64,000 bases of DNA from Acidobacteriota bacterium. GTDB lineage: Bacteria > Acidobacteriota > Terriglobia > Acidiferrales > UBA7541. The position numbers were made by a program, and so were the translations under genes. The first letter of the stretch is position 1, and every line of letters starts with the position of its first letter. Location of the stretch: NCBI GenBank assembly GCA_003223215.1, contig QHYH01000108.1, positions 1 to 64,000 on the forward strand. The letters run 5' to 3'. Below are positions 2,556 to 43,091 of the stretch, one piece after another. The notes below the pieces were generated by a model. It ran no database searches and was not told the DNA's origin. It saw only the letters and a program-made list of their open reading frames with translations.

Positions 2556-2621
2556 AACGACCGCCGCGACCAATTTCCTGTAACGCGTTCATTCTAAAAG
2601 AATCCTTTGAATAATCCAGTT

Positions 2622-2637
2622 GGGAGATCCAAATGCC
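2622..2637 (+). promoter_or_regulatory. Possible sigma-54 promoter of subtilase 1
   Basis: GG at 2623-2624 and GC at 2635-2636 are separated by exactly 10 nt, as sigma-54 requires; flanking bases match the consensus poorly. Predicted transcription would begin near 2647, 24 bp before the GTG start. Confidence 0.4.
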
Positions 2638-2670
2638 TTAACACAATCTCAGTACACCCAGGAGGGTTCT

Positions 2671-4356
2671 GTGACTGCAACAAAGCGCTTGCAGATCGTT
2701 GCATTCCTATTTAGCACCATCCTGGCAGTTGGCGTGCATTCCGCCCCCGGCCCCCAGTTCGCGAAGGACCTCAACGAGCAAAATTCCAAACAAATCGACG
2801 TAATCATTCAATTCAAACACTCTCATAAATCGAATGAAAAAGAAGATGATGAAGCTATTCGTCAGGTGGGTGGAGTCTTCAAGGCCGAGCTCGGTTTAAT
2901 TGACGGTGGCCTGTACTCAGTGCCAGAGAACAGATTAGAGCATCTCTCCAAGAATCCCAACGTTTTGTACATCTCGCAAGATCGTCCACTCACCTCACTC
3001 CTTAACAATACGGCGCTAGCCGTAAATGCCAACATCGCGTGGAGCCAAGGTTGGGACGGAACGGGAATTGGCGTGGCGGTGATCGACAGTGGTGTCAGCA
3101 ATGATAAGGATTTCCAGATTTCCGGCAAATCGACATCGCGCATCTCGTATTCGCAAGCGTTCTACGGGGGAGCTAAAACGTACGATGAATACGGTCACGG
3201 CACCCATGTGGCCGGCATTGTGGCGAGCAGCGGCACGAATTCGACGGGTTCCCAATACATCTACACGTTCAAGGGCATCGCGCCCAATGCGAATCTCATT
3301 AACCTCCGCGCCCTCGATCAAAACGGCTCCGGCACAGACAGCACCGTGATTTCTGCGATCCAGGCAGCCATTCAGCTCAAGAGCAAGTACAACATTCGCG
3401 TGATTAATCTCTCTTTGGGCCGCCCAGTCTTTGAGAGCTACAAACTCGATCCCCTTTGCCAAGCCGTCGAGGCTGCGTGGAAAGCGGGAATCGTCGTTGT
3501 TGTTGCCTCAGGAAACTCAGGCCGCGATAACTCGCAGGGCACAAACGGCTACGCCACGATTACCTCGCCGGGCAACGACCCGTATGTCATTACTGTGGGG
3601 GCCATGAAAACGATGGGCACGCCCACTCGCAACGATGACTTGATCACAAGCTACAGCTCGAAAGGTCCGACGCTTTTTGATCACGTAGTGAAGCCCGACA
3701 TCGTCGCCCCGGGCAATCGCACCGTCTCAGTGCTCGATGCGAAAGGGTCGCTGCAATTCGCCTACCCGGCTAACGATGTCCCAGCGTCTTATTACCAAAA
3801 GAATCCTTCCAACAGTGGATCTCCTTATTACATTTTGAGCGGCACGAGCATGGCTGCCGCAGTCGTCAGCGGCGGCGTAGCGGTTCTCCTGCATACTCAA
3901 CCGAACTTGACGCCGGACCAGGTCAAGGCCAGGCTAATGAAGACGGCCTCAAAGAGCTTCCCCGCGTACAGCACAGCGACCGACCCGATCACAGGAGCCA
4001 CCTATGCCAGTCAGTACGACATTTTCACGGTCGGCGCGGGCTACTTGGATGTCGCGGCGGCCCTCGCCGATTCCGACGTGGCGACTGGCAATGCGCTCTC
4101 TCCCACAGCTGCCTACGACTCAAGTAACGGCAACGTCTACTTAGTCTTTGGTTCCGGTGCCGTTTGGGGTAGCGGCGCAGTGTGGGGCACGAATGTGTTC
4201 ATCAGCGGGTCCGGTGCGGTCTGGGGCAGTGGTGCCGCTTGGGGCACGAACACGGACAGTGGCTTTGGCGCGGTCTGGGGTAGCGGTGCCGTCTGGGGCA
4301 GCAGCACACAACAATCAGTGGAAAGCATCAACGTTGCGATTACAGGCGAAAATTAA
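2671..4356 (+). CDS. Secreted subtilisin-like serine protease (S8), copy 1
   Basis: 561 residues from a GTG start chosen because GGAGG lies 5 bp upstream and a signal peptide follows at once; an upstream in-frame TTG at 2620 has no such support. After the signal come an inhibitor-I9-like propeptide and the S8 catalytic domain, with D139 (VIDSG), H176 (GHGTHVAG), N282 (oxyanion hole) and S393 (GTSM). About 60 C-terminal residues consist of imperfect SGAVWGS/T repeats ending in GEN. It should be exported and auto-processed. Two paralogues follow in tandem. A palindrome and a possible sigma-54 promoter lie upstream. Confidence 0.93.
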   Translation: MTATKRLQIVAFLFSTILAVGVHSAPGPQFAKDLNEQNSKQIDVIIQFKHSHKSNEKEDDEAIRQVGGVFKAELGLIDGGLYSVPENRLEHLSKNPNVLYISQDRPLTSLLNNTALAVNANIAWSQGWDGTGIGVAVIDSGVSNDKDFQISGKSTSRISYSQAFYGGAKTYDEYGHGTHVAGIVASSGTNSTGSQYIYTFKGIAPNANLINLRALDQNGSGTDSTVISAIQAAIQLKSKYNIRVINLSLGRPVFESYKLDPLCQAVEAAWKAGIVVVVASGNSGRDNSQGTNGYATITSPGNDPYVITVGAMKTMGTPTRNDDLITSYSSKGPTLFDHVVKPDIVAPGNRTVSVLDAKGSLQFAYPANDVPASYYQKNPSNSGSPYYILSGTSMAAAVVSGGVAVLLHTQPNLTPDQVKARLMKTASKSFPAYSTATDPITGATYASQYDIFTVGAGYLDVAAALADSDVATGNALSPTAAYDSSNGNVYLVFGSGAVWGSGAVWGTNVFISGSGAVWGSGAAWGTNTDSGFGAVWGSGAVWGSSTQQSVESINVAITGEN

Positions 4357-4390
4357 GATGCAACCCCGACGCAGGCCCATAGCGGTCCGA

Positions 4391-4401
4391 GACAGGTTGT
4401 C
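4391..4401. promoter_or_regulatory. GACA-N3-TGTC palindrome, upstream of subtilase 2 (distal)
   Basis: GACAGGTTGTC lies 30 bp (about three helical turns) upstream of the next copy, so two activator dimers could bind on the same DNA face. Confidence 0.45.
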
Positions 4402-4418
4402 CCTGGCACCCTCACCGA

Positions 4419-4433
4419 GCGACAAATTGTCTT
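4419..4433. promoter_or_regulatory. GACA-N3-TGTC palindrome, upstream of subtilase 2 (proximal)
   Basis: The core GACAAATTGTC (4421-4431) is identical to the core at 2543-2553. Its centre is 73 bp upstream of the -24 GG at 4499, almost the same spacing as at subtilase 1. Confidence 0.55.
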
Positions 4434-4496
4434 CTCGACTCCGCGGCTTGGATCGCCCTAACTGTTTCAATCACAAGGAATTGCCGTTCGAGTCCG

Positions 4497-4513
4497 TTGG
4501 CATTGCAGATGCA
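4497..4513 (+). promoter_or_regulatory. Sigma-54 promoter of subtilases 2 and 3
   Basis: TTGGCA and ATGCA boxes have GG (4499-4500) and GC (4511-4512) 10 nt apart. This is the closest match to TGGCAC-N5-TTGCW in the cluster. Predicted transcription starts near 4523. Confidence 0.5.
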
Positions 4514-4557
4514 CTTCCTACACGAGTTGGCCCGATACCAGAAAGGCGAGCAAACCT

Positions 4558-6453
4558 GTGAATGGGTTGGACGGTAGAGCGAAACTGATGGACCCGACCT
4601 TCACGTGCCTGGCCGCTTGCGAATCGCTTTTCGATGCAAACAACAATTCCAAGATCTACGTTTCGACCAACTTTGCACAACTTGGGAGTTCCTTCATAAG
4701 ACGGTTCGAGCGCGAAAAGAAGCTCATCAATTCCCCGGTGTTCAGCGCTGCGACGTGGGGCGCTCGGGTATTGATGGCGATTGTAATTTGCCTGCTTGCC
4801 CCTGGCCTCTCCCTTGCTGACGGGAAGAAGCACAAGTTGTCCAAAGATCTTGACGCTATGCAAGGCGCCTCGAAAGGCCCAATCGTTGATGTCATCATTC
4901 AATTCAAGCAGGCGCCCACGGACGCCCAGCACGCGAAAGTACAGGCGAAGGGCGGCGTGCTAAAGACGAAACTCGACGTAATCAAGGGCGCCCATTATTC
5001 CGTGCCCTTGGAATCGCTCGAAAGCTTGGCGGATGATTCTGACGTTGCCTACATTAGTCCTGACCGCGCGGTGAATGGATCGCTGGACTATGTAACTTCC
5101 GCAGTGGGCGCTCCCGTAGCTTGGAACGTATACGGCCTGTACGGAGACGGCATCGGCGTCGCCATCATCGACAGCGGCATCCACAACCTGAACGATTTCC
5201 AGGATTTGAGCGGGAAGAACAAACTTGTCTATAACCAGGATTTTGCTGGAGGCGGGGGACCTGCAGCAGACGACCTCTACGGTCATGGTACGCATGTTGC
5301 CGGGATCGCCAGCAGCTCAGGGAAGGGATCGACCTGCAAGACGTGCACACGCACGTTCATGGGAATCGCGCCGAACGTCCAGCTGGTCAACCTTCGCGTG
5401 TTGAATCAGTACGGCGCGGGCACCGATAGTCTGGTGATTTCCGCCATTCAGAAGGCCATCGCACTCAAGAGCACCTACAACATCCGGGTGATCAATCTTT
5501 CGCTGGGCCGGCAAGTGTACGAGTCGTACGTCTATGATCCCCTCTGCCAGGCCGTCGAATCCGCCTGGCGAGCGGGAATCGTTGTGGTCGTGGCGGCAGG
5601 AAACCAGGGGCGCAACGACTCCATGGGAACCAACGGTTACGGCACCATCGCCGCTCCGGGGAACGACCCTTACGTAATTACCGTTGGCGCGATGAAAACC
5701 AACGGAACCTATTCCGTGGTGGACGACACGATCGCGACTTATAGCTCGAAGGGCCCCACAGGGTTCGACCAAATCGTGAAGCCGGACTTAGTCGCGCCGG
5801 GCAATCGGGTTGTTTCCGACCAAAACATGGCTGCGACGCTGGCGAAAAACTATCCTACTAACAAAGCCCTTTTGCAGTACTATCAGACCACAATCAACAC
5901 GGGGACCTCGAACCAGTACTACGCACTGAGCGGCACGAGCATGGCCACGCCAGTGGTGAGCGGAGCTGCTGCAATACTTATCCAGCAAAATCCGAGCCTC
6001 ACTCCGGACCAGGTCAAGGCGCGTCTGATGAAGACTGCGTCCAAGACATTTCCGGTCAGCAGCACGGTCACGGATCCGGCGACGGGGATCACCTACACGG
6101 ACTACTACGACATCTTCACCATCGGGGCTGGCTACGTGAAAACCGCTGCCGCGCTGGCCAATAACGATTTAGCCGTGGGATCGGCAATGTCTCCCGCGGT
6201 GAGTTTCGATCCAAGCACCGGGAACGTTACGTTGGTCGAGAGCACAGCGGTGACCTGGGGCAGCAGTGTCGTATGGAGCGACTCCGTGGTGTGGGGCACC
6301 AACGTATTTGTAAACGGCACCGCGGTGCTGTGGGGCTCAGGCGTTTGCTGGGGCGATAGCACGAACGTAAGCTTCAGTGTCATCTGGGGCACTGGGGTGG
6401 TGTGGGGCGATGCAACGAATTCAGCGTATTCCTTGATCGACGGCGAGAATTAA
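4558..6453 (+). CDS. Secreted subtilisin-like serine protease (S8), copy 2
   Basis: The layout matches copy 1: hydrophobic export segment, I9-like propeptide, S8 domain with D205, H243 and S461 (numbered from 4558), and a C-terminal VWG repeat region ending GEN. The start is uncertain. GTG 4558 and ATG 4588 are the in-frame start codons ahead of the signal, but they place 50-60 extra residues before it. The position aligning with copy 3's ATG is an ATA codon at 4696, preceded by GGGAG at a good distance. Copy 3 follows after 20 bp, so the two are probably one transcript from the sigma-54-type promoter at 4497. Confidence 0.92.
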   Translation: MNGLDGRAKLMDPTFTCLAACESLFDANNNSKIYVSTNFAQLGSSFIRRFEREKKLINSPVFSAATWGARVLMAIVICLLAPGLSLADGKKHKLSKDLDAMQGASKGPIVDVIIQFKQAPTDAQHAKVQAKGGVLKTKLDVIKGAHYSVPLESLESLADDSDVAYISPDRAVNGSLDYVTSAVGAPVAWNVYGLYGDGIGVAIIDSGIHNLNDFQDLSGKNKLVYNQDFAGGGGPAADDLYGHGTHVAGIASSSGKGSTCKTCTRTFMGIAPNVQLVNLRVLNQYGAGTDSLVISAIQKAIALKSTYNIRVINLSLGRQVYESYVYDPLCQAVESAWRAGIVVVVAAGNQGRNDSMGTNGYGTIAAPGNDPYVITVGAMKTNGTYSVVDDTIATYSSKGPTGFDQIVKPDLVAPGNRVVSDQNMAATLAKNYPTNKALLQYYQTTINTGTSNQYYALSGTSMATPVVSGAAAILIQQNPSLTPDQVKARLMKTASKTFPVSSTVTDPATGITYTDYYDIFTIGAGYVKTAAALANNDLAVGSAMSPAVSFDPSTGNVTLVESTAVTWGSSVVWSDSVVWGTNVFVNGTAVLWGSGVCWGDSTNVSFSVIWGTGVVWGDATNSAYSLIDGEN

Positions 6454-6473
6454 ATTGAAGGAGTTATCCACGT

Positions 6474-8321
6474 ATGAGACCGCATAGCTCAGGGAAACTC
6501 GTTCCCACCAAGAAGACGCCCAGCACGACGACGTGGGGTGCCAGGATCTTATTGACATTGCTGTTCTGCCTGCTTGCGGCTGGCTTCTCCCTTGCTGATG
6601 GGAAGCACAAATTGTCCAAAGATCTTGAGGCTCTGAAAGACGGCCATAACGGTGCCACCGTTGATGTGATCGTTCAATTTAACCAAACGCCGACCGTTGC
6701 ACATCACCAAAAGGTGCAGGACAAGGGCGGGGTGCTGAAAACGAAGCTCGACGCCATCAAGGGTGCCCATTATTCCGTCCCTGTTGAATCACTCCAATCG
6801 CTCGCCGACGATCCCGACGTTGCTTACATCTCGCCCAATCGTCCGCTTAGCGGCACTTCCACATCGACTCTCGATTACACCCCAGAAAGCGTCAATGCTC
6901 AAGTCGCTTGGCAGCAGTGGGGTTTGGATGGCACGGGCGTCGGAGTGGCGGTCATTGACAGCGGCGTTACCGCCGTTGGCGATCTCTACTGGTGGATTCC
7001 GTCGAATCAGACCTACGGTTCGCGCGTGGTCTATAGCCAGAACTTTGTTCCTGGCACAACGGATTCTTCGGACCAATATGGCCACGGAACGCATGTGGCC
7101 GGGATCATTGCGAGTCAAGGGTGGTTTTCCACCGGTTCGAACTTTACGCACACATTTAAAGGAATTGCGCCGAACACAAACGTCATTAACCTGCGAGTGC
7201 TAGACCAGAACGGCGCCGGTACCGACAGCAGTGTAATTGCGGCGATCCAGACGGCCATCAGCCTGAAGTCTACGTACAACATCCGAGTGATCAACCTTTC
7301 GCTTGGCCGCCAAGTCTTCGAGAGTTATACGCTCGATCCGCTCTGCCAGGCTGTCGAGGCCGCTTGGAGTGCGGGCATCGTCGTCGTTGCTGCGGCTGGC
7401 AACCAGGGCCGCAATGACAGCGCGGGCACGGAAGGTTACGGCACCATCGCGGCTCCAGGCAACGATCCGTACGCGATCACTGTGGGTGTGATGAAGACGG
7501 CAGAGACTCCCACCCGCAGCGACGACACCATTGCCAGTTACAGCTCGAAAGGACCAACGGCATACGACTTTGTCGTAAAACCTGACATCGTCGCGCCTGG
7601 AAATCAGGTCGTCTCCACGCTGGCGCCGAATGCGTCCCTATTGAGTACTCCCACCGACGTTTATCTGAGCGAGTACTCCTCCGCGACGACCTCCAGCACC
7701 GGCGGCAATACCAAGAATAATAAGAAGAACTCCACGTCGAGCCTGACCGCGAACACGATCTCGACCTCATATATGCGGCTGAGCGGCACCAGCATGGCCA
7801 CTCCTGTGGTCAGTGGCGCGGCCGTACTGCTGCTTCAGCAAAATCCGAACCTTACGCCCGATCAAGTGAAGGCCCGTTTGATGAAAACGGCCTCCAAGAA
7901 CTTTCCTGCTTACAGCACAGTCACGGACTCGACTACGGGCATCACCTACACCGATTACTACGACATTTTCACGATCGGTGCCGGCTATCTGGACATTGGC
8001 GCTGCCCTCTCCAGCAATGACCTGGCCGATGCTTCGGCTGTATCTCCGGCCGCGGTCTTTGATCCTACGACACAAAGCGTTTATCTCGTTACTGGCCAGG
8101 GCGTCGTTTGGGGAGATTCTTCACCGTGGGCCACTTCGCTTGTTTGGGGCACAAACGTCTTCGTGAACGGAACTGCGGTGCTATGGGGAAGTAGCGTTTG
8201 CTGGGGCGCGAGTTCCAACGCGGGCTTCAGCGTCGTGTGGGGCACCGGCGTTGTGTGGGGTGACACATCGAACCAAGCGACTTCCAAAGCGCTAAGCATT
8301 TTGGTTGGCGGCGAGAATTGA
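6474..8321 (+). CDS. Secreted subtilisin-like serine protease (S8), copy 3
   Basis: 615 residues with ATG at 6474 behind AAGGAG (6458-6463). The signal peptide ends near SLADG. The I9-like propeptide is followed by the S8 domain, with D162 (VIDSG), H204 (GHGTHVAG) and S440 (GTSM). A Ser/Thr/Asn/Lys-rich insert of about 30 residues sits between the N and S regions and is absent from copies 1 and 2. The C-terminus again carries VWG repeats (WGTNVF, LWGSSVCWG, VVWGTGVVWG) and ends GEN. It is closest to copy 2, consistent with tandem duplication. A good ribosome site and no own promoter signal indicate co-expression with copy 2. Confidence 0.93.
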   Translation: MRPHSSGKLVPTKKTPSTTTWGARILLTLLFCLLAAGFSLADGKHKLSKDLEALKDGHNGATVDVIVQFNQTPTVAHHQKVQDKGGVLKTKLDAIKGAHYSVPVESLQSLADDPDVAYISPNRPLSGTSTSTLDYTPESVNAQVAWQQWGLDGTGVGVAVIDSGVTAVGDLYWWIPSNQTYGSRVVYSQNFVPGTTDSSDQYGHGTHVAGIIASQGWFSTGSNFTHTFKGIAPNTNVINLRVLDQNGAGTDSSVIAAIQTAISLKSTYNIRVINLSLGRQVFESYTLDPLCQAVEAAWSAGIVVVAAAGNQGRNDSAGTEGYGTIAAPGNDPYAITVGVMKTAETPTRSDDTIASYSSKGPTAYDFVVKPDIVAPGNQVVSTLAPNASLLSTPTDVYLSEYSSATTSSTGGNTKNNKKNSTSSLTANTISTSYMRLSGTSMATPVVSGAAVLLLQQNPNLTPDQVKARLMKTASKNFPAYSTVTDSTTGITYTDYYDIFTIGAGYLDIGAALSSNDLADASAVSPAAVFDPTTQSVYLVTGQGVVWGDSSPWATSLVWGTNVFVNGTAVLWGSSVCWGASSNAGFSVVWGTGVVWGDTSNQATSKALSILVGGEN

Positions 8322-19177: not shown

Positions 19178-19699
19178 ATGATCACCATGACACGAAGAGA
19201 GACTCTTGCGGGAGCCATTGCATTGCTGTCCGGATGGAGCGCGGCCGAAGTCCGCGGGCGAGCCGGAATAACCGGTCAGCGGTCCGCATCGGGATCGGAA
19301 ACCGCGCCACGGTTGCAGTCCGCCGGGCAGTCACGAACTTCTACGCGGACGCAAAGCGGGGAGCGGGCGGAAGCGGGCCTGGTTTTTGAGCACGACTTGC
19401 CGAACCTCACGATGGACGACTGGGAGGTTACCGTCAGTGTCGTGGACTACGCGCCGGGAAGAGTGGGCAAGGTGCATCACCATGCGGGATTCGTGCTGGC
19501 GTACGTGCTCGAAGGAATGATCGTGACCAAGATTTCCGGGCAGGAAGAGAAAACTTATCAGCCGGGAGAGATGTTCTACGAGCCGCCCGGAAGCACGCAC
19601 GAAGTATCGCGCAACGCGAGCGAAACTCAGCCGGCAAAGCTGCTGGCGATGATCTTCGCGAAAAAAGGTGTTCCGCTGACGATGCCCGGGCCGGCGTGA
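19178..19699 (+). CDS. Tat-type secreted cupin protein
   Basis: 173 residues. The N-terminus TRRETLAGAIALLSG resembles a twin-arginine signal, followed by a Ser/Gly-rich linker of about 40 residues. The single cupin domain shows both motifs: GKVHHHAGFVLAYVLEG (metal ligands H-x-H and E) and PGEMFYEPPGSTHEV. A metal-bound, periplasmic small-molecule enzyme or binding protein is likely; the reaction is unknown. Tat export would fit folding around a metal in the cytoplasm. It is transcribed toward the DUF3179 gene and appears monocistronic. Confidence 0.85.
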   Translation: MITMTRRETLAGAIALLSGWSAAEVRGRAGITGQRSASGSETAPRLQSAGQSRTSTRTQSGERAEAGLVFEHDLPNLTMDDWEVTVSVVDYAPGRVGKVHHHAGFVLAYVLEGMIVTKISGQEEKTYQPGEMFYEPPGSTHEVSRNASETQPAKLLAMIFAKKGVPLTMPGPA

Positions 19700-19892: not shown

Positions 19893-20912
19893 CTAATCCT
19901 TTGGCGCGACGGAGGCGTAGATTTTCGTTTCGGGATGGAATTCCGACCAAGCAAACCAATATTCCGGCTCCAGGATCAGCGATTCGAGCTGTGAACCCTT
20001 CAACGGACCGGAAAGGCACTTCCCGTAAGCGTCCCAACGCGAGCCGGTTTCCTTGTCGGTGAGTTCGGTGGCGTCAGCGTTGGCGGCGCGGAATTGCAGG
20101 GTCTTCCCTTTTGCGCGCGCGATGAAGGCGGTGGTGGTGTCGGATGACGGCTGATGGACGATGAGGATTGGCTGGCCGCCGAGATGGTCATGAATGACGC
20201 GTGTTTCGCGGAGAACGGATAGGGGAAACGCTTCGCTCGACTCGCCCACGTCGAGGCCGAGGATCATGGTGCGCGGCTTGAGCCGGTCGTCCAGGCGGAG
20301 CACTCCGGGAGGCGCACTCCCTCCGCCCGAAAGGCCGCGGCGAATCATTTCATTTTTTTCGGGGATGCGGTCGGCATAACCCGGCAAAGGCTTGAGGACC
20401 AGCGTATCGGGATGCAAGCGGCGCCATTCGTTCCAATCGGTGAGAAGAAAAGGATACAGCTCGAGCCGTTCGCCTTTGAGCGGCCCGGAAATCGCTTGCA
20501 GGCTGGACTGCTGCCAGCGACTTCCGGTTTCGCGGTCCTGGAAAACCTCGTTGCCACCGATGACGCCGGCATTGTCCATGTACAGCTCGCGCCCTTTGCT
20601 GGCGGCCCTGAACACGAGGGCCGTGTTGCAGTAGCTTCACCAGGTGACGGCGATGGGTCCGGAGGGCGATTGATCTTCGACAAGGCCGTGTTGAGAGAGA
20701 ATGGCGGCGGGGTAAGCTTTGGCGACGGTTCCGGCCATGACGCCGATGACGCGGTCCGGGTCGTGCAAAAAGTTGGCGGACGAAGCGGGAATAAATTGCG
20801 GATCGTGGACCGCGGTGTAGGGTAAGAGCGGCTCTGCTTGCTTCTGCCGAGCGCCGGTTGCGCCAAGGGCAAGGGCCAGCCACACCAAGGCGAGGGCACA
20901 CCGTCTCTTCAT
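19893..20912 (-). CDS. DUF3179 protein, candidate selenoprotein (in-frame TGA)
   Basis: 339 codons from ATG 20912 (AAGG 8 bp upstream, signal peptide ending near ATGA). The frame is open except for a TGA at 20637-20639, codon 92, and stays in the same frame on both sides. In DUF3179 this place is the first Cys of a conserved CxxC (VT[W/Y]CPLCxTA); here it reads VTW-TGA-SYCNTALVF. Downstream residues show the family's duplicated ETGSRW / GPLKG / W-x2-(W/F)-x2-HP(D/E)T units, so the 3' part is under no obvious decay. A hairpin at 20603-20623 fits a bacterial SECIS. Selenocysteine insertion is therefore plausible; a nonsense mutation is the alternative. Function is unknown; a thiol/selenol redox or metal role is possible. 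Confidence 0.65.
20603..20623 (-). other. SECIS-like hairpin after the in-frame TGA
   Basis: Starting 14 nt after the TGA, CGGCCCT pairs with AGGGCCG (7 bp) around the loop CGTGTTC. A G is the second loop base, 22 nt from the TGA. Bacterial SECIS elements need a short stem with an early loop G at about 16-37 nt from the UGA, so the geometry fits. The hairpin is coding sequence and GC-rich, so chance is not excluded. Confidence 0.45.
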
Positions 20913-31460: not shown

Positions 31461-31614
31461 GGCAGCACTCCTGACAGCACAAGGATATCAAATGTGGTCA
31501 GTTTTCAGCTTTCCCTGGAGAAGAGAATGCGAGATTCCGGAGCTCGCAACAATTAGGTTGGCCCGCGCCCTGCTCGAACCGTCGACCGATGTAAGTCTCC
31601 TGCCCCTCGAGGCG

Positions 31615-32266: not shown

Positions 32267-32710
32267 ATGTTTGTAGCGCTCTGGGAGGTCGAAGTCAAGC
32301 CGCGTTGCCAAGAACGGTTCCAGAAAGTCTATGGCCCCGGAGGGGACTGGGCCAAACTGTTCCAGAGTGATTCGAACGACCAGGTAACTGAATTATGGCA
32401 CGATCCCGAGCATCCTGCAATATTTCTGACTTTGGATTTCTGGACCTCGCGGCAGGCGTACGAGAATTTCATGGCATCGCTTGCCGCCGAGTACGAAAGA
32501 TTAGACGCGGTGGGAGAGGAATTGACGCGGTACGAGAGGAAGATTGGATGGTTTGAGAGCGTGGAGCATGGAGAGAGCCTGAGCAGGGGTTCAAGAGAGC
32601 CGAAACGGAGAGCGGCTGACACAACACAAGCCCGCCAAGGAGCCAGGGCTTTTTGCGTCAGAATTCGCGCCGTTGAGAAGCAGGTTTGCCGCCAAGCCAC
32701 ATTTGGATGA
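32267..32710 (+). CDS. Small dimeric alpha/beta-barrel (ABM-like) protein
   Basis: 147 residues from ATG 32267 (AGGAG 11 bp upstream), where the domain begins with FVALWEVEVKPRCQERFQKVYG; the frame is open upstream without support. The core (1-105) resembles monooxygenase-like ferredoxin-fold proteins (FLTLDFWTSRQAYENFM). The last 40 residues, rich in Arg and Ala, are probably not conserved; their coding overlaps the 3' end of the convergent hpnE by 53 bp. No catalytic residues are diagnostic. Function is unknown. Confidence 0.6.
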   Translation: MFVALWEVEVKPRCQERFQKVYGPGGDWAKLFQSDSNDQVTELWHDPEHPAIFLTLDFWTSRQAYENFMASLAAEYERLDAVGEELTRYERKIGWFESVEHGESLSRGSREPKRRAADTTQARQGARAFCVRIRAVEKQVCRQATFG

Positions 32711-34121
32711 AGCCGTCTGGTGCGAGATCGCGCCGTAGAAAAGTCTTTGGGGCGCCGGAAGAGCGAAGAAGAGCCTCGGCAGCAAGGTAGCCGCTGCGAA
32801 CCGCGCCTTCCATGGTGGCGGGCCAGCCGGTTTGCGTCCAATCGCCAGCCAGGAACAGCCCGGGAATAGCGGTTGATTGCCCGGGGCGCCAACGATCGAC
32901 GCCGGGCTCAGGCGAAAAAGTGGCGGCCGCTTCTTTGATGACGGTGGCCTTCAGCAATTGTGCGTCACGAGCCTTCGGCAAAGCATGGCAAACCTCGGCG
33001 AGACAGAGATCGATGATTTCCTCGCGGGATTTTTGAAGCAAATCGTAAGAAGCGCTGATGACCAGTTGAAGATATTGCGTACCTTCGGAGGAGTCTGTTG
33101 CTCTCTTCGGATCGCCGCCAGAACCCCCGTAGAGAGCGGTCTTGTTGAAGATCCACTGCGTGGTCGTGTCGAGGAGCGTCACGAAGGGCTCGTCCAGCAC
33201 CGGGCGATCGAACCAGAAATGGACGCCGGTGATGGGCGAGGTTTTGATTTTGTCGAGATGAGCAAGGGATGGATCCGACCGCTTCAGGCTTTCCGGGAGG
33301 AGTTCGGCAAGCGCGGTGTGTGGAATCGCGAAGATGTAAGCGTCCGCTGATTCCTCGCGGTTTTCATCGAAGCGCACGCCGGCGAGCTGGCCGCTCTCGA
33401 GCTTCAGTCCGCGTACGGGCGAGCGCAGCACCACTTCCCCGCCCCTACGTTCGATTTCTTCTTTGCAACCATGATAAAGACTCGAGAGTGGAACAACGGG
33501 CACGCCCACGCGATAACCCGTGCTGTTTGAAAGAAAGGCTTTCCAAAAGACGTCCACGCCGAAACGCGCATCGGTGCGGCCGAGTTCTTCGTCGAGCGCA
33601 CTAACCAGAACGACGCGCCAAAAGCGATTGATGGCCCGTTTCGTCTGGCCGCGGCGGCGGAGCCATTCGAGCATGGAGAGGCCGTCGCCTTCGCAAAGGT
33701 CCGGAGAACTGCCAGCGTGCCGGATGATGTTGAGCATGGCGCGGGCGATGGACAGCTTGTCGGGTAGCATGAGTGGCGCAAACGATGCGAAAGAACCGGC
33801 AAAATGAAACGGGGCGGGAAGCGCACCCGCTTTCATTTCGCCGCGGCGGCCCTGAGGATCGAGAAAAAGGAGCCGGTCGAAAAATCTGATTTTATCGGAC
33901 GCGCCGACGCGTCGGTAAAAATCCTCAAGGTTCGTGCAACAGCCCAGGGTAACGTGCTGGCAATTGTCGACATGCTCGCCGTCGGGCAGCACATAGGAAG
34001 TTGCGCGGCCGCCGAGAAAGGGGCGCTGCTCGAATAAACGAACGCGCCAACCCGCATCAGCCAGCGCGACGCCGGCCGCCAGCCCCGCCAGCCCGCCGCC
34101 GATCACGATCACGTTTTTCAA
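32658..34121 (-). CDS. hpnE: Squalene-producing hydroxysqualene dehydroxylase HpnE
   Basis: 487 residues from TTG 34121, placed there because the FAD-binding motif begins at once (VIVIGGGLAGLAAGVALADAG) and a GGAAGAG lies upstream. The rest matches the squalene-associated FAD-dependent desaturase/HpnE family: EQRPFLGGRATSY, a central substrate region, and the C-terminal GLFLAGDWTQTGWPATMEGAVRSG. HpnE reduces hydroxysqualene to squalene after HpnC and HpnD. The start lies 65 bp inside the upstream hpnC-hpnD fusion gene, so translation is probably coupled. It is the last gene of the hopanoid operon. Confidence 0.92.
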   Translation of the reverse strand: MKNVIVIGGGLAGLAAGVALADAGWRVRLFEQRPFLGGRATSYVLPDGEHVDNCQHVTLGCCTNLEDFYRRVGASDKIRFFDRLLFLDPQGRRGEMKAGALPAPFHFAGSFASFAPLMLPDKLSIARAMLNIIRHAGSSPDLCEGDGLSMLEWLRRRGQTKRAINRFWRVVLVSALDEELGRTDARFGVDVFWKAFLSNSTGYRVGVPVVPLSSLYHGCKEEIERRGGEVVLRSPVRGLKLESGQLAGVRFDENREESADAYIFAIPHTALAELLPESLKRSDPSLAHLDKIKTSPITGVHFWFDRPVLDEPFVTLLDTTTQWIFNKTALYGGSGGDPKRATDSSEGTQYLQLVISASYDLLQKSREEIIDLCLAEVCHALPKARDAQLLKATVIKEAAATFSPEPGVDRWRPGQSTAIPGLFLAGDWTQTGWPATMEGAVRSGYLAAEALLRSSGAPKTFLRRDLAPDGFIQMWLGGKPASQRREF

Positions 34122-36015
34122 GGATGTTCTCTTCCGGGTGGTGGCCGAAACGGGCCTTGGCCATGAATACCATTTTTTCCGCTTTGGAGAGGCGGATTTT
34201 TTCGCCAAAGACGGCGAAGTCGAGCGCTTCGATACGGCCGAGCAGCGCGCTGTAGGTATGCACCAGGAGCCAGAGAGCGCTACGGCTGTCCGGCTCAATC
34301 AAGCCGAGCAAGGCTGAACCTTCCTCGTAAAGCTGCCATGCGCGGTCGGATTCGAAGCGAAGCAACTCGTGCATGCCGAGCGTCGCTTCGTCGCGGCCAA
34401 AATCTTCCGGCGAAACGCCGTACCGCGCAAGGTCTTCTTCGGGAACATACACGCGGCCGAGCTTATAGTCCTCATGGACGTCACGGATGATGTTTGTGAG
34501 CTGGAAGGCCAGGCCGAGTTTCTCGGCCAGGTCCAGAGCGCGCGCGTCGGTGAAACCGAACACCTGGGTGCAGGTCAGGCCGACGGTTCCGGCGACGCGA
34601 TAGCAATATTCGCGCAAGCGGTCGAACGTGGGATAGAAGCGGACGGTGAGGTCCATCTCGGCGCCGCTGATGAGATCGTGAAGATAGCGGGCGGGCATGT
34701 TGTAGCGGCGCATCGTATCAACCAAAGCGGGCAGAACTTCTGCCGCGCCGCTGAGGGCCGTCGCGGGTGAAGCCAAGGTGGCATTCCCGTCGAAAACTCG
34801 TTCCTCTTCGGTGATGGCTTGATCGAGGGCCGTGCGCCAACGGGCGAGCCCGCGCTGCTTGGCGGCAAGGTCCCGGGCTTGGTCGGTAACGTCATCGATG
34901 TGACGCATGAAGGCGTAGAGCGCGGCGAGAGCGTCGCGCTTGGGTTTGGGCAGCAAGAAGAAGGCGTAATAGAAGTTGCTGTGCGAGGCGCGGGCAATGC
35001 GATGGCAGTGCTCGTAGGAGTCGGCAACCGCCCGAGCGGGTTGCGGTTTTCCAAACTGCTTTTCCGTGCCGGCGACCAACCTTTCGGCTGCCTGATCCGC
35101 TGCCGCGGCGCTAGGTTCGATCAGATGCTTGAGCAACGTGCGACCAAGAAGCCGAGCCTGCTTGAGCTTGCTGATAGCGGGGCGTTTATGGAGCGTGTCG
35201 TAGCCGATGGATTCGATGGCGTCGAGAACGGCGAGGCCGCCGCGGCTGAACATTTCGAGGTCAACACGGAGACGTTTATCGACCATTTTTGCGAGCGGCA
35301 GTCCCCGGTCAAACAACGCGCGCGTGCGGGCGATAAGATCCTGCATCAGACCGACATAGCGCTCGTCAAAGCGGCGCTCCACGATGTCGCGCTCGGTGAG
35401 ACCGTGGTTTCGAGCAACGTCAAGCGGAATGTAGATGCGGCCCTTTTCAAGGTCGCGCGAGACGTCTTGCCAGAAGTTGGCAAGCTGCAAGGCGGTGCAG
35501 GTCGCGTCGGAAAGGCGTTGGCGCTGCTCGTCACGATAGCCGCAGAGATAAAGGACCAGCTGCCCCACAGGGTTGGCGGAATAAACGCAGTAGCCAAGAA
35601 CGGCGTTCCAATCAGCGTAGCGGTTGGTCGTCTGATCCTGTCGAAATGCCTTTAGCAAATCGGCGAAGGGCTGCTTGGGGATGTCCTTGGCGAGGATCGT
35701 CTTGCGCAGCGCGACAAAAACAGGGTGTGACGGCTTGTTCTCGTAGCAAGCGTCGAGCTCGCGCTCCCACCAGTCGAGAAGTTCAAGTCCGCGCAGGGGG
35801 TCGGGAGCCTCATCGCCAAGGTCGTCGGCCCAGCGGCAATAGGCATAGACATTGTAGAAATGCTGGCGGAGCGCCTTCGGAAGGAGCCAAGAGACGACCC
35901 TGAAGTTCTCGTAATGATGGGTGCCAAGCCAGTGAGTGTATTCCTCGGCCGCGGCAGACGAGCAGCCCGGCTGAGGCACGCGCTGCGTGATGGCGAGTTC
36001 GCCGGGAACAAGCAT
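34057..36015 (-). CDS. hpnCD: Fused HpnC-HpnD (presqualene and hydroxysqualene synthases)
   Basis: 652 residues containing two complete trans-isoprenyl-diphosphate (squalene/phytoene) synthase domains. Domain 1 (about 20-300) carries DDLGD (64-68) and DVSRD (184-188) and resembles HpnC. Domain 2 (about 335-640) carries DDVTD (374-378) and DVHED (512-516) and resembles HpnD. HpnD makes presqualene diphosphate from two farnesyl diphosphates; HpnC converts it to hydroxysqualene. These are normally separate genes of about 280-300 residues each. The joining segment (300-335) is Ala-rich. No internal stop or ribosome site suggests two products. Fusion could channel the reactive intermediate. Confidence 0.9.
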   Translation of the reverse strand: MLVPGELAITQRVPQPGCSSAAAEEYTHWLGTHHYENFRVVSWLLPKALRQHFYNVYAYCRWADDLGDEAPDPLRGLELLDWWERELDACYENKPSHPVFVALRKTILAKDIPKQPFADLLKAFRQDQTTNRYADWNAVLGYCVYSANPVGQLVLYLCGYRDEQRQRLSDATCTALQLANFWQDVSRDLEKGRIYIPLDVARNHGLTERDIVERRFDERYVGLMQDLIARTRALFDRGLPLAKMVDKRLRVDLEMFSRGGLAVLDAIESIGYDTLHKRPAISKLKQARLLGRTLLKHLIEPSAAAADQAAERLVAGTEKQFGKPQPARAVADSYEHCHRIARASHSNFYYAFFLLPKPKRDALAALYAFMRHIDDVTDQARDLAAKQRGLARWRTALDQAITEEERVFDGNATLASPATALSGAAEVLPALVDTMRRYNMPARYLHDLISGAEMDLTVRFYPTFDRLREYCYRVAGTVGLTCTQVFGFTDARALDLAEKLGLAFQLTNIIRDVHEDYKLGRVYVPEEDLARYGVSPEDFGRDEATLGMHELLRFESDRAWQLYEEGSALLGLIEPDSRSALWLLVHTYSALLGRIEALDFAVFGEKIRLSKAEKMVFMAKARFGHHPEENILEKRDRDRRRAGGAGGRRRAG

Positions 36016-36075
36016 CAGAAGAGAGATTCCTTCTCTCGCTCGGAATGACGGGCGGGTCGACGGCGCACGTACAAA

Positions 36076-37188
36076 CTACGGCCGCACGGCAAGCTTGATC
36101 TCGCCGCTGCGGGACTTCATACGCTCGAAGGCCTGCGGCAAGTCGGCCAGACGAATTTCTTCGGTGACAAAGTCGTGCGCAGAAATGTCACCGCGACGAA
36201 TCGCCTCCAGCGCCTCGCGGAAGAAGCGCGGCGTGTGATGGAACGTAGAGATGAGCCTGATCTCGGAATAGTGGATGGCGGCAGGCTCGATCTCAAGACG
36301 CGTACCCGAAGGCAGGCCGCTGAAGAAATTCACAACGCCTCCGCGGCGCACGATGGCCAGCGCCATGCGCCAGGTGGCGGGATTGCCGGCAGCTTCGACG
36401 ACCGAATCCGGTCCGCGCTGATCGTCGGTGAGAGCCCTTACAGCGGCGACAATATCCTTCACCTCGTTAACGTTGATGGTAGCGACCGCGCCGAGACGTT
36501 TGGCCACATCGAGAGGGGCGGCGCGCCGAGCCAGGGCGATGACCCGGGCGCCACGGCGAGACAGCATGCGGATGAATTTCAGCCCGATCGGCCCGCAGCC
36601 AATCACCGCGACAATGTCGCCGGTGCGCACCTCCATTTCGTGAATGCCCCGCAGAACGCAGGCAAGCGGCTCCGCCAGCGCCGCGCTTTGGTCATCCACC
36701 GAGTGCGGCACTCCCAGCATGTTTTCCATGGCGATGCGGCCGGGAATGCGCATGTACTCGGCATATGCGCCGTTGTTAAAAAGCAAATCGTCGCAAAGAT
36801 TTTCCTGGCCGCGCCGGCAGTGGTAACAGCGCAGGCACGGCGCGGAATTCGCCGCCACGACCCGCATGCCGAGGCGCCAGCGCGGATCGACGCGCTTGCC
36901 GACGGCCACGATGTCGCCTACCAGTTCGTGGCCAAAGACCGCCGGCGGCTGAATCATGCGGGCATGATAGCCGCGCTTCCAAACCTTGAGGTCCGTGCCG
37001 TCGGTGAGCGCGAGGCGCACGCGAAGAAGCACTTCATCGGCGGCCAACGAAGGCACGTCGATCATTTCGACGCGAAGATCCTCGCTGCCATACAGAACCG
37101 CAGCAGTCATTTTGGATGGCACCGCAACGCGTGCGACGGCAGCTTTCAATTCCTCTTCCGTTTCTGTTTTCCTGATCGTGGTCTTCAT
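36076..37188 (-). CDS. Zinc-type medium-chain dehydrogenase, first catalytic Cys replaced
   Basis: 370 residues; ATG 37188 overlaps the upstream stop by 4 bp (ATGA). The MDR fold is complete: GHE of the catalytic site (VFGHELVGD), structural zinc cysteines CLRCYHCRRGQENLC, and Rossmann GCGPIGLKF. The usual catalytic CGTD reads DGTD (LTDGTDLKVW), so the first zinc ligand is Asp. It is otherwise closest to threonine/sorbitol-dehydrogenase-like enzymes. It is paired with a second MDR gene inside the hopanoid operon, suggesting a redox step on a hopanoid side chain, but the substrate is unproven. Confidence 0.85.
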   Translation of the reverse strand: MKTTIRKTETEEELKAAVARVAVPSKMTAAVLYGSEDLRVEMIDVPSLAADEVLLRVRLALTDGTDLKVWKRGYHARMIQPPAVFGHELVGDIVAVGKRVDPRWRLGMRVVAANSAPCLRCYHCRRGQENLCDDLLFNNGAYAEYMRIPGRIAMENMLGVPHSVDDQSAALAEPLACVLRGIHEMEVRTGDIVAVIGCGPIGLKFIRMLSRRGARVIALARRAAPLDVAKRLGAVATINVNEVKDIVAAVRALTDDQRGPDSVVEAAGNPATWRMALAIVRRGGVVNFFSGLPSGTRLEIEPAAIHYSEIRLISTFHHTPRFFREALEAIRRGDISAHDFVTEEIRLADLPQAFERMKSRSGEIKLAVRP

Positions 37189-38291
37189 CCGTGCGTGATC
37201 AAAACCTTTAGCGATTCTTCCGTGGGCCGGGCTGCCAGCTCCAAAGCGTCTTGAATTCTATCCAGGGGAAACCGGTGCGTCACAATATCCATCACCGGAA
37301 GCTTCTTGCGGAGCACCAGGTCCGCGGCCGCCTCCTGGATATCCACCGCGGCGCTATAGCTGCCCAGAATTTCTTTTTCGTCAATCCCCACAGCCGCTGC
37401 GGGAAACTCGATCCTGGTGACCGGATCGTTGGCGGCAAACAACAGGACCCGACCACCAGGCCTCGCCGCAGCCAGCGCTTCCACGACCACCGCGGGATGC
37501 GCTACGGCCACCAGAACGGCATCTGCCCCCCGGCCCTCCGTGCGGGCCTGAATCTCCTCCACCAGCTTACCACCACTGGGGTCAAACGACTCAATCGCGC
37601 CCAAACGAAGGCTCTTGGCGCGGCGCTCAGCCATGGGGTCGCTGGTATAGAGACGGGGCCCGGCCAGCTTCGCGACCATCAGGAGCTGCAAGCCGATGGG
37701 ACCGCAGCCGATGACCAGGACGGTTTCGCCTGCCGTTACGCGGGCCTTCTCGACGGCTTTCAGAATCGTGTTGATGGGCTCGATGAAGGTGGCTTCTTCG
37801 AAGCTGACGTTCTCGGGAACCGCCACGATGCCGCGCTCGGCGACCCAAGGCATGGCTTTTACATATTCGGCGAAGCCGCCGCCGTTGGGAGTAAAGCCGG
37901 CGGTCAGGCCGGTGGTCTTGTACTGCTTGCACTGAGAAAAGAGGCGACGCTCGCAGTAAAAGCATTTGCCACATGGCACGTGATGAAAACTCATCACGCG
38001 ATCACCCTGTTTCCATTTGCTGACCCCACGGCCGACGGCAACCACCGTGCCGGCCAGCTCGTGTCCGAGGATTTGCGGCGGCTCGACGTAGCGATGGAAA
38101 ATCTTCTTGATGTCCGTGCCGCAGACCCCGCAGGCGGCAACTTTGATGAGCGCTTCGCCATCCCTGACTTCGGGGACCGGGACTTCCTCGACGCGAACGA
38201 TGCCCTTTTCGCGGAAGACGCCGGCACGCATGGTTTTGGGGATGGGGCGGCGTGAGCGGGCGGCCTCTAGCGTCGTGCCGGTGCGGCTCAT
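37185..38291 (-). CDS. Zinc-type medium-chain dehydrogenase in the hopanoid operon
   Basis: 368 residues with intact catalytic motif CGVCGTDIKK, GHE (ILGHELAG), structural cysteines CGKCFYCERRLFSQC and Rossmann GCGPIGLQL. Length and domain order are normal for the family. It overlaps the nucleosidase gene by 4 bp upstream and the next dehydrogenase by 4 bp downstream, so all three are translationally coupled. The preceding HpnG/HpnA genes act on the C35 side chain, so oxidation or reduction of a side-chain hydroxyl is a reasonable inference. NAD(P) preference is not clear from sequence. Confidence 0.87.
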   Translation of the reverse strand: MSRTGTTLEAARSRRPIPKTMRAGVFREKGIVRVEEVPVPEVRDGEALIKVAACGVCGTDIKKIFHRYVEPPQILGHELAGTVVAVGRGVSKWKQGDRVMSFHHVPCGKCFYCERRLFSQCKQYKTTGLTAGFTPNGGGFAEYVKAMPWVAERGIVAVPENVSFEEATFIEPINTILKAVEKARVTAGETVLVIGCGPIGLQLLMVAKLAGPRLYTSDPMAERRAKSLRLGAIESFDPSGGKLVEEIQARTEGRGADAVLVAVAHPAVVVEALAAARPGGRVLLFAANDPVTRIEFPAAAVGIDEKEILGSYSAAVDIQEAAADLVLRKKLPVMDIVTHRFPLDRIQDALELAARPTEESLKVLITHG

Positions 38292-39040
38292 CGTGCTACC
38301 GCTCCGCTCGTCGTGCTCATTGACGATCCGACCGCCTGGACATAACGGTCCAGGAATGCCGCCAGTTTTTCCGCGGCCGCGCGGCTTTGCGTTGCAAACC
38401 TTACCAGTGCAGCCGTGGACAGGGGGTGACGTACCATCTCGCCCAAGACGCGAGGGATGCTTACCTCCCCCGTTGAAGTCATAACTCTATTGAAGTCCAG
38501 GGGCAGGTCCTGGTCCGCGGCGTCGCTGATGCCGCGAATGGCAATTCCTTTTGCCCCGAATGCAGCTGCTTCGTATAACACTGCCCCGCTCTCCATTTCT
38601 ACGGCGTCAGCGAGCCTGCCAAGTTCTCTTTTCTCCGTCGCCAAACCGATCACGCGGTCGGCACTGTAGAACGAATCGACCGCGCGCGCACCGTGCTCTT
38701 CCGCAAGCCGAACCAGCCGAGCATCCGCGGCGACTACACGCTGCGAGCCAACCGCCTGAACCTCCTTCGCGGCAAGAACGTCTCCAAGGTGATACTCCGG
38801 ACGAAGCGCACCGGCCAGTCCACTGGAAATGCAGAAATCAACTTCACCATCGCAAATAACCTTGGTCGCTTGCAACCAGGCATTCTTCCCGCCGACCCCG
38901 GTCAATAGCACGTTTACTTCGCTGGCGCCGATGCGCGCTCGAAAGAACTGTGCTTTGCCCTTGGTCATTTTTTCAAAGCCTCTTAACTTGCGCCAAGGGG
39001 CGAATTCGGCTTCCACGGCGAAGGTGACCAGGACGCGCAT
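38288..39040 (-). CDS. hpnG: HpnG-type nucleosidase (phosphorylase superfamily)
   Basis: 250 residues with the MTA/SAH-nucleosidase fold: an N-terminal TFAVEAEFAPWRKL, LTGVGGKNAW, SSGLAGALRPEYHLGDV, and the catalytic/ribose-binding ADAVEMESGAV with GISDAADQDLP. In hopanoid pathways this family member (HpnG) removes adenine from adenosylhopane to give ribosylhopane. Its place between hpnA and the two dehydrogenases, with a 4-bp overlap downstream, supports that role over general purine salvage. Adenosylhopane formation itself needs a radical SAM enzyme (HpnH), not recognised with its cluster motif in this window. Confidence 0.83.
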   Translation of the reverse strand: MRVLVTFAVEAEFAPWRKLRGFEKMTKGKAQFFRARIGASEVNVLLTGVGGKNAWLQATKVICDGEVDFCISSGLAGALRPEYHLGDVLAAKEVQAVGSQRVVAADARLVRLAEEHGARAVDSFYSADRVIGLATEKRELGRLADAVEMESGAVLYEAAAFGAKGIAIRGISDAADQDLPLDFNRVMTSTGEVSIPRVLGEMVRHPLSTAALVRFATQSRAAAEKLAAFLDRYVQAVGSSMSTTSGAVAR

Positions 39041-39090
39041 GGATAAAAGCGTTAACCACCAGGGCGCAGCTGCGCCTTACTAGATTGCCT

Positions 39091-40113
39091 CTAGGCTGCG
39101 CGGGCGCGTGCCATCTTCCTCGCGCGGCCCTTGTTGATATAGCCGTTGGCCTCGTACCAGCGGACCGCGCGTTCGAGCGCGCCAGCCACCGGACCCGCCT
39201 TGAAACCCAATTCACGTTGCGCGCGCGAGCAATCCACAAACATCATGTGCCGCGCGATCTTCACGCCTTCGACCGGAATGCCCGGTTCCCGACCAATCAG
39301 CCGCGAAAACAAGGTATTGGCGTAGGCTACACCTAACGCCAAGCCGTGGGGAATTTTCAGCTTCGGCGCCGACAGACCGGTAATTCGGGAAAGCGTATCG
39401 AGCAACTGCTTTAGCGTGAGATTCTCGCCGCCCAAAAGATACCGCTCGCCAACCCTTCCCTTCTCGGCGGCAAGCAGATGGCCGGCGGCGCATTCCTCGA
39501 CACCAACGAAATTCAAGCCGGTCTCGACATAGCCCGGCATCTTGCCATTCAGAAAATCCAGAATGATTTTGCCTGTCGGCGTGGGCTTCCAATCCCAAGG
39601 GCCGACGGGCGTAGTCGGCATAACTACGATGACGGACAAGCCTGCTTTGGCGGCCTTGAGAGCTTCCTGTTCGGCCATCCACTTGGAGCGCTTGTAATGG
39701 CCGACCATCTCTTCGAGTCGAGTGTCCGTAAATTCGTTGGGATGTTGCGGACGGTCAACGGCGATGGTGGCGACCGTGCTGGTGTAAATGAACTGCTCGA
39801 CGCCCGCGCGTATCGCAGCGTCGAGAAGGTTTTTTGTGCCGCCGACGTTCGAATCGTAAATATCCTGCTTGCGCTTAGCCCACAAACGATAATCGGCGGC
39901 AACATGGAAGACGCGCTTGGCTCCCTGCGTCGCGCGAGCGACTGCTGCCGGATCGCGCAAATCGCCAGTGACGTATTCGAGCGACAGGTCCGCGATCGCC
40001 CGATTGGTGCTCGAAGGACGCAGCATTACGCGCACATCTTCTCGCCGCGCCACCAATTGGCGCGCCACGTGGCTGCCCAGGAAGCCGGAAGCGCCGGTCA
40101 CCAGGATGGTCAT
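39091..40113 (-). CDS. hpnA: Hopanoid-associated sugar epimerase HpnA
   Basis: 340 residues of the extended SDR family: VTGASGFLGSHVARQL (NAD-binding GxxGxxG), the catalytic Tyr/Lys pair in HYKRSKWMAEQEAL, and the HpnA-typical PTTPVGPWDWKPTPTGKII block. HpnA is thought to act in maturation of the bacteriohopanetetrol or cyclitol side chain; its exact reaction is not settled. The ATG overlaps the stop of the upstream gene by 4 bp. A 50-bp gap separates it from hpnG. Confidence 0.93.
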   Translation of the reverse strand: MTILVTGASGFLGSHVARQLVARREDVRVMLRPSSTNRAIADLSLEYVTGDLRDPAAVARATQGAKRVFHVAADYRLWAKRKQDIYDSNVGGTKNLLDAAIRAGVEQFIYTSTVATIAVDRPQHPNEFTDTRLEEMVGHYKRSKWMAEQEALKAAKAGLSVIVVMPTTPVGPWDWKPTPTGKIILDFLNGKMPGYVETGLNFVGVEECAAGHLLAAEKGRVGERYLLGGENLTLKQLLDTLSRITGLSAPKLKIPHGLALGVAYANTLFSRLIGREPGIPVEGVKIARHMMFVDCSRAQRELGFKAGPVAGALERAVRWYEANGYINKGRARKMARARAA

Positions 40114-40841
40114 GCGATTCCTATGCCTTCTTCACGTGCTTCCGGATGCGGCGTTTCGGTGAGGGATGCCTGAGCGCCCTTCCATTCCCTCGCCTGCGTT
40201 TGCGACAGAAGCGCCTCTTCGACGTCCTCGGAAAACTGACGCCAGAAACTGCTGGGGATCAGGATGCGGGCTTCCGCGGTTTTGCGGACAATGGTCTGAT
40301 CTGAAGATCCCGCGGTGATCAGCCAGCCGTCCACATCGTTTTTCAATAGGAATGCCCGGAGAGGCGACAAGTGCACGAGGTCTGCCTCTAGGTGAACGGG
40401 GGAATGGACGGCGGTAAAAAAGCCGGACAGTCTCGCCGCGCGAAGCCCTTCGACCGCAAACGCGGAGCCAGGGTCTTCGAATGAGCGCAGACGCACCGTC
40501 AAAAATAGTTGCGGTAGCGGCTGAAATTCGTGAATGCGACGGGGCAAGAGCGTTCCATCGGTTTCGAGAAACACGAAGCGACCGCCCCGCGCGACGGCGC
40601 GAACGAAATGGCCCACACCCGAGTGGTGCAACGGTTCGCTCCCGCCAACCCAAACGACCGGTGCCCGATTGTTGATAAGCTCCCGCATTTTTTCGCGCGA
40701 AACCGGCGCATCGGCGCCAGGATGAAGAATTACACCGGGGTCCACACAATAAAGCAGAGAGCTTTCCCGCGCGGAACTAAAGATTTGCGCGATCCGGACC
40801 TTTGCCAATTTTGCCGTGAGCCGCGCTGGTAAGCGCATCAT
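40110..40841 (-). CDS. Radical-SAM-like protein without a cluster motif
   Basis: 243 residues. The middle matches the part of a radical SAM TIM barrel that binds SAM: VVWVGGSEPLHHSGVGHFVRAV corresponds to the GGEP motif and following helix, and FLETDGTLL to the next strand. The usual CxxxCxxC cluster motif is absent; only one Cys (LLYCVDPG) lies in the right area. It starts 5 bp after shc and overlaps hpnA, so it is firmly in the hopanoid operon, where HpnH (radical SAM) would be expected. It may be a degenerate relative or a non-catalytic partner. It is far shorter than HpnH (about 330). Confidence 0.6.
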   Translation of the reverse strand: MMRLPARLTAKLAKVRIAQIFSSARESSLLYCVDPGVILHPGADAPVSREKMRELINNRAPVVWVGGSEPLHHSGVGHFVRAVARGGRFVFLETDGTLLPRRIHEFQPLPQLFLTVRLRSFEDPGSAFAVEGLRAARLSGFFTAVHSPVHLEADLVHLSPLRAFLLKNDVDGWLITAGSSDQTIVRKTAEARILIPSSFWRQFSEDVEEALLSQTQAREWKGAQASLTETPHPEAREEGIGIA

Positions 40842-40846
40842 GTAGT

Positions 40847-42862: not shown

Positions 42863-43091
42863 AAAATGCTCCCCCCAGAGCACTGCAAGTTTGACGGGTC
42901 AGGGTAGGCCGGCCCAACCCGTCCGAGCACCTTCCCGATAGCCCTCAACACTTAACTGCCGTGATCCCGGTGACTTGCAATCGAACACCACAACCGAAAA
43001 GAGTCCTAGCAGCACGGGTACTTGTTCGATTATCGCTGCCCCGATGCCAGGGGTCAACGAATAAGATGCCCGGCCCCAAAACGATGCGCCG

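Follow-up and report, generated by a model that had tools for sequence, protein, structure and literature searches.

DUF3179 (pfam11376) is tabulated in two reviews as a selenoprotein family with a UxxC/T motif and is credited there to Zhang and Gladyshev 2007 (PMC9312934, PMC13188914), the cited source being a study of the Olavius algarvensis symbiont, whose title, as given in the reference lists, names the deltaproteobacterial symbiont of a gutless worm (PMC9312934, PMC13188914). For the Acidobacteria, four selenoproteins of three families have been tabulated (PMC1794560), and one acidobacterium is listed with three selenoproteins (PMC12013277). No function for DUF3179 was found in the open-access literature searched, in which the family was also not mentioned together with Rieske. 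DUF3179 is also named in a published table of Idiomarina genes, and in a set of 20 listed plasmid records three use the name “DUF3179 domain-containing (seleno)protein”.

The gene described here lies in a window of 64,000 nucleotides from an Acidobacteriota bacterium (contig QHYH01000108.1), and the original prediction took it for a candidate new selenoprotein. The novelty of the family did not hold, given that DUF3179 is listed in two reviews and the name stands in public records, so that the acidobacterial gene represents a new example rather than a new kind. It shares the family, the UxxC/T motif and a predicted selenocysteine (Sec) with the selenoproteins that the reviews attribute to Zhang and Gladyshev 2007, and differs from those of the 2007 study in being acidobacterial, in the clade-specific, frozen hairpins and in the conserved cupin neighbour.

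The gene comprises 339 codons and a stop, on the minus strand, which the original prediction had left out, and the frame is open on either side of a single in-frame TGA, as had been proposed (Table 1). The TGA, in the context VTW-U-SYC, falls on the first position of the CxxC motif, again as predicted. The match to PF11376 places the protein in the family at 213.6 bits, against a gathering score of 27, and covers model positions 6-292 of 292; as it spans nearly the whole model, the sequence on both sides of the TGA is coding. Residues 1-21 have the look of a signal peptide by eye. Searches with the protein returned no NCBIfam family at E up to 0.01 and only chance-level matches among PDB sequences (best E 0.093). 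The genome itself holds one DUF3179 match only (E 1.9e-60, with one TGA), and the nearest named relatives, 86-88% identical, come from metagenome-assembled genomes labelled Acidobacteria gp2, for which the depths in their names suggest an origin in soil. The family is patchy within the genus, with 7 genomes that carry it and at least 20 listed genomes that do not.

Table 1. Coordinates of the features discussed (window positions unless another contig is given).
Feature	Position	Strand	Basis or remark
Predicted DUF3179 selenoprotein gene	19893..20912	minus	translation; PF11376 5.3e-63; dN < dS both sides of TGA
Predicted UGA codon for Sec92, which opens the U-x-x-C motif	20637..20639	minus	translation, homologue alignment
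Codon of Cys95, the nearly invariant Cys of U-x-x-C	20628..20630	minus	homologue alignment
Bacterial SECIS-like hairpin	20603..20623	minus	nt 14-34 after UGA, 7 bp + inner G-C pair
Cupin gene (Cupin_2), conserved neighbour	19178..19699	plus	convergent, tail to tail with DUF3179 gene
Three tandem subtilisin-like proteases, C-terminal WGSGAVWG-type repeats	2620-8321	plus	by eye
Amine-oxidase-like desaturase	32658-34298	minus	by eye
Long ORF resembling squalene/phytoene synthase in two stretches	34057-36015	minus	by eye
Squalene-hopene-cyclase-like gene	40847-42883	minus	by eye
SelD gene (L067)	own genome C89:13265-14227		in-frame TGA, AAGUAAK

Elsewhere in the window, a run of genes on the minus strand (32658-42883) resembles squalene/hopanoid biosynthesis, the names being assigned by eye. 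Another TGA near a Cys codon, at 31490 on the minus strand and with a long open frame downstream, was not taken for Sec, as it lies upstream of the ATG of a gene that looks, by eye, like an alanine racemase.

The conservation of the TGA was surveyed in the window gene and 146 loci, 147 sequences in all, of which 118 passed the motif pattern and 110 were distinct. The 29 failures are 23 rows of L021-L050, plus L113, L160, L165 and L167-L169; L031 and L113 carry TGA at the motif but fail the pattern, and are absent from the TGA count. Named and unnamed loci overlap, as judged by contigs of equal length (e.g., L051 and G150), and exact repeats were dropped before codons and columns were counted. 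At the Sec position, the 110 distinct motif-bearing sequences have 90 TGA, 18 TGC and 2 TGT, so that the TGA column holds Cys in relatives, which is the pairing that the original prediction had proposed looking for. The TGA aligns to a single column in 29/29 close homologues and in 49/49 genes of the TYUTLCHTG clade, and it stands at the U-x-x-C motif in all 16 named relatives and in all 83 fetched loci of the class flagged with one TGA, two overlapping sets in which such a recurrence at the same motif is not due to chance. Among 39 aligned sequences, the Sec/Cys92 column is invariant and Cys95 nearly so. Some UGA copies have Ala or Thr in place of the second Cys (UPLA, UPLT or UPIT; L031, L033, L040, L071, L075 and L149).

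A tree of 88 proteins requires four changes between Sec and Cys. One of them involves L022, which has a genuine Cys motif (VSYCPLCNSA) but is a distant member, sits on a long branch of unsure placement and was included both in this tree and in the Cys group of the codon-choice comparison. The remaining three changes (L162-L164; L151-L159 with L170; L166) lie inside Sec clades of this tree, which is rooted at its midpoint only, and may be read as Sec-to-Cys conversions.

Selection continues beyond the TGA. Compared with the three nearest relatives (L051-L053), dN/dS is about 0.24-0.27 upstream of the UGA and about 0.08-0.10 from codon +13 on, so that the downstream part is the more constrained, and the decay of the 3' half that would have spoken against a selenoprotein was looked for and not found.

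Bacterial SECIS elements of the E. coli fdhF type consist of a hairpin directly after the UGA with a G in the apical loop, and the hairpin found here shares this geometry, with the apical-loop G some 24 nt downstream. Its stem of 7 bp (CGGCCCT/AGGGCCG), its 7-nt loop CGUGUUC with G as the second base, and its start 14 nt after the TGA are as originally predicted, and folding adds one G-C pair within this loop, which leaves the apical loop UGUU. Each of the eight pairs is standard in 27 or 28 of the 28 distinct close UGA genes, in which one sequence has the pair 15/33 replaced on both sides (A-U for G-C), the other changes being a few G-U pairs and one mismatch. The codons are held in the same manner, as the fraction of the top codon at +5..+11 is 0.96 in the close UGA genes against 0.59 elsewhere (p 9e-6), and the Arg at +10 is encoded by AGG in 29/29 of them. 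In the TYUTLC clade, where the sequence of the hairpin is different, the fraction is 0.98 over the hairpin and 0.62 elsewhere (p 9e-4), whereas in 15 Cys genes it is 0.39 at the hairpin site and 0.61 elsewhere, and the hairpin is not kept. This freezing of codons in the UGA genes, and not in the Cys genes, indicates selection at the RNA level in the UGA genes only. It differs from the known SECIS elements in that the hairpin matches no Rfam family (20400-20800, E up to 10), and RF00031 was found neither in the genome nor in 14 control genomes, a silence which, being common to every control, is uninformative. The SECIS search suggested with the original prediction was thus answered by a SECIS-like hairpin with conserved pairs and codons, and not by the Rfam models.

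The genome was also searched for selA, selB, selC and selD, whose absence would have weighed against Sec, and all four were found above their cut-offs: tRNA-Sec at 65.4 bits (ARAGORN also calls SeC(tca)), SelB at 354 bits, SelA at 568 bits and SelD at 351 bits. Sec-containing SelD is a known form, and the SelD of this genome is probably a selenoprotein itself, since its gene contains one in-frame TGA, in the context AAGUAAK. The classical Sec formate dehydrogenase was not seen, as none of the 4 matches to PF04879 in the genome contains a TGA.

At the level of the class, DUF3179 is present in 132 of 399 genomes, of which 124 were scored for TGA (for the remaining 8, the listing did not include the matches); at least one copy with one TGA was found in 77, and 47 have non-UGA copies only. 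Strong SelA matches (E below 1e-100) occur in 75 of the 77 genomes with a UGA copy and in 27 of the 47 with non-UGA copies only, a difference for which the Fisher p of 2e-8 overstates the case and is not a clean probability, given that SelA is common in the class (above cut-off in 286/399 genomes) and that the genomes share ancestry. The two UGA genomes that lack a strong SelA are G320, with a partial match (2.2e-64), and G299, with none, and perhaps their assemblies are incomplete; their UGA-bearing DUF3179 genes are L100 and L127, respectively.

The machinery, the TGA/Cys column, the SECIS-like hairpin and the lack of decay all bear out the proposal of a selenoprotein, and, on these comparisons of sequences, the TGA is very probably read as Sec. 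If it were a true stop, the locus would be a pseudogene or would encode two proteins, the second of which would restart at GTG 20615 and yield a C-terminal protein of 240 residues. Translation table 11 does break the gene at the TGA, as the original prediction had foreseen for standard gene calling, and the GTG start exists; however, the sharing of the TGA column by 29/29 and 49/49 homologues, the frozen codons over the hairpin, the dN below dS downstream and the Cys that takes the place of the TGA in relatives make a stop highly improbable.

Decoding of the UGA as another residue, whether through an altered genetic code or by a suppressor tRNA, would also fit a codon that looks read through, but tRNA-Sec, SelA, SelB and SelD are present, relatives carry Cys at this column and only UGA genes keep the hairpin frozen, so that this reading is slightly less probable still. 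An error of sequencing or assembly in a TGC or TGT codon can be considered extremely improbable, as nothing was found in its favour and one TGA is present in every genome of the genus for which a DUF3179 match is listed (7, this one included) and in the 16/16 named relatives, a set that overlaps these 7 genomes.

Returning to the product of the Sec reading, its fold was predicted with AlphaFold from 39 homologues (38 selected loci plus the window), which gave a pLDDT of 92.1 and a pTM of 0.87 for the full protein, and 93.6 and 0.89 for the first half alone. The second half (model residues 223-319) matches 2qpz as its top hit (Z 9.0, rmsd 2.9, 91 aligned residues), and the first half, modelled alone, matches 3dqy (Z 8.1, rmsd 2.7, 91 aligned). 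The 50 matches shown for the first half have Z values of 6.0-8.1, a middling range that is common, and all are chains that, judging by their titles, are of the Rieske or NirD type. Foldseek returned no match to the models at E under 0.001, and the profile comparison of DUF3179 with Rieske is weak (P 0.015 and 0.31).

These models suggest that DUF3179 is composed of two tandem Rieske-like domains, the first of which carries Sec in a beta-hairpin. By these predictions, both halves may share the fold of Rieske [2Fe-2S] domains, whereas DUF3179 is duplicated, carries U-x-x-C in the hairpin and has neither of the cluster-ligand motifs, CxH and CxxH; it is therefore no Rieske cluster protein. The idea that U-x-x-C stands in place of the cluster ligands was dropped, given that the model has it as part of a hairpin formed by strands 85-92 and 97-102 and that the weak profile alignment sets the second ligand loop on a DxxTG motif instead.

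The neighbouring cupin, whose start looks Tat-like by eye (TRRETLAG), adjoins DUF3179 in nearly all loci of its own clade (28/30) and in none of the 6 loci from other clades (tblastn with the window cupin), no relative being detected within about 2.5 kb of the latter. Among the named loci, 15 of 16 have a cupin relative, convergent in 14 and on the same strand in L065, with none in L057, a contig of 3 kb. A further 13 of 14 own-clade loci have one (L185 has none), with best pieces 35-46% identical, and in these 13 it is on the same strand as DUF3179, either upstream or downstream. Given that the pairing survives these changes of order and strand and is also seen beside Cys forms (L173-L175), a shared function of the cupin and DUF3179 is suggested.

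In the mechanism proposed, the UGA would be decoded as Sec by the SelA, SelB, tRNA-Sec and SelD of the cell, with insertion directed by the hairpin that begins 14 nt downstream, and the outcome would be a full-length DUF3179 selenoprotein of 339 residues with a Sec92-x-x-Cys95 pair. Judging by the N-terminal segment, this protein may be exported, and it would fold, according to the predicted models, into two beta domains of Rieske-like type that hold no iron-sulphur cluster, in which Sec92 and Cys95 may act as a thiol-type redox centre. Its redox work would probably be performed jointly with the adjacent, exported-looking cupin, the likeliest guess being the reduction of an oxidised thiol, a peroxide or a similar small substrate outside the cytoplasm. 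A redox role together with the cupin is put forward tentatively, at somewhat less than even probability, and the fuller picture, in which a tandem Rieske-like fold lost its cluster, has its redox centre in a Sec-x-x-Cys hairpin and, in Acidobacteria, forms a two-component exported system with the cupin, is likewise possible at somewhat less than even probability.

Finally, what is added here to the knowledge of DUF3179 is how frequent its Sec forms are in the class, its pairing with a neighbouring cupin gene and a Rieske-like structural model. Sec in DUF3179 appears to be common in this class (77/124 scored genomes), where a plain table 11 reading splits the gene, and the link to the cupin, together with the Rieske-like model, may provide testable ideas on the function of the family.
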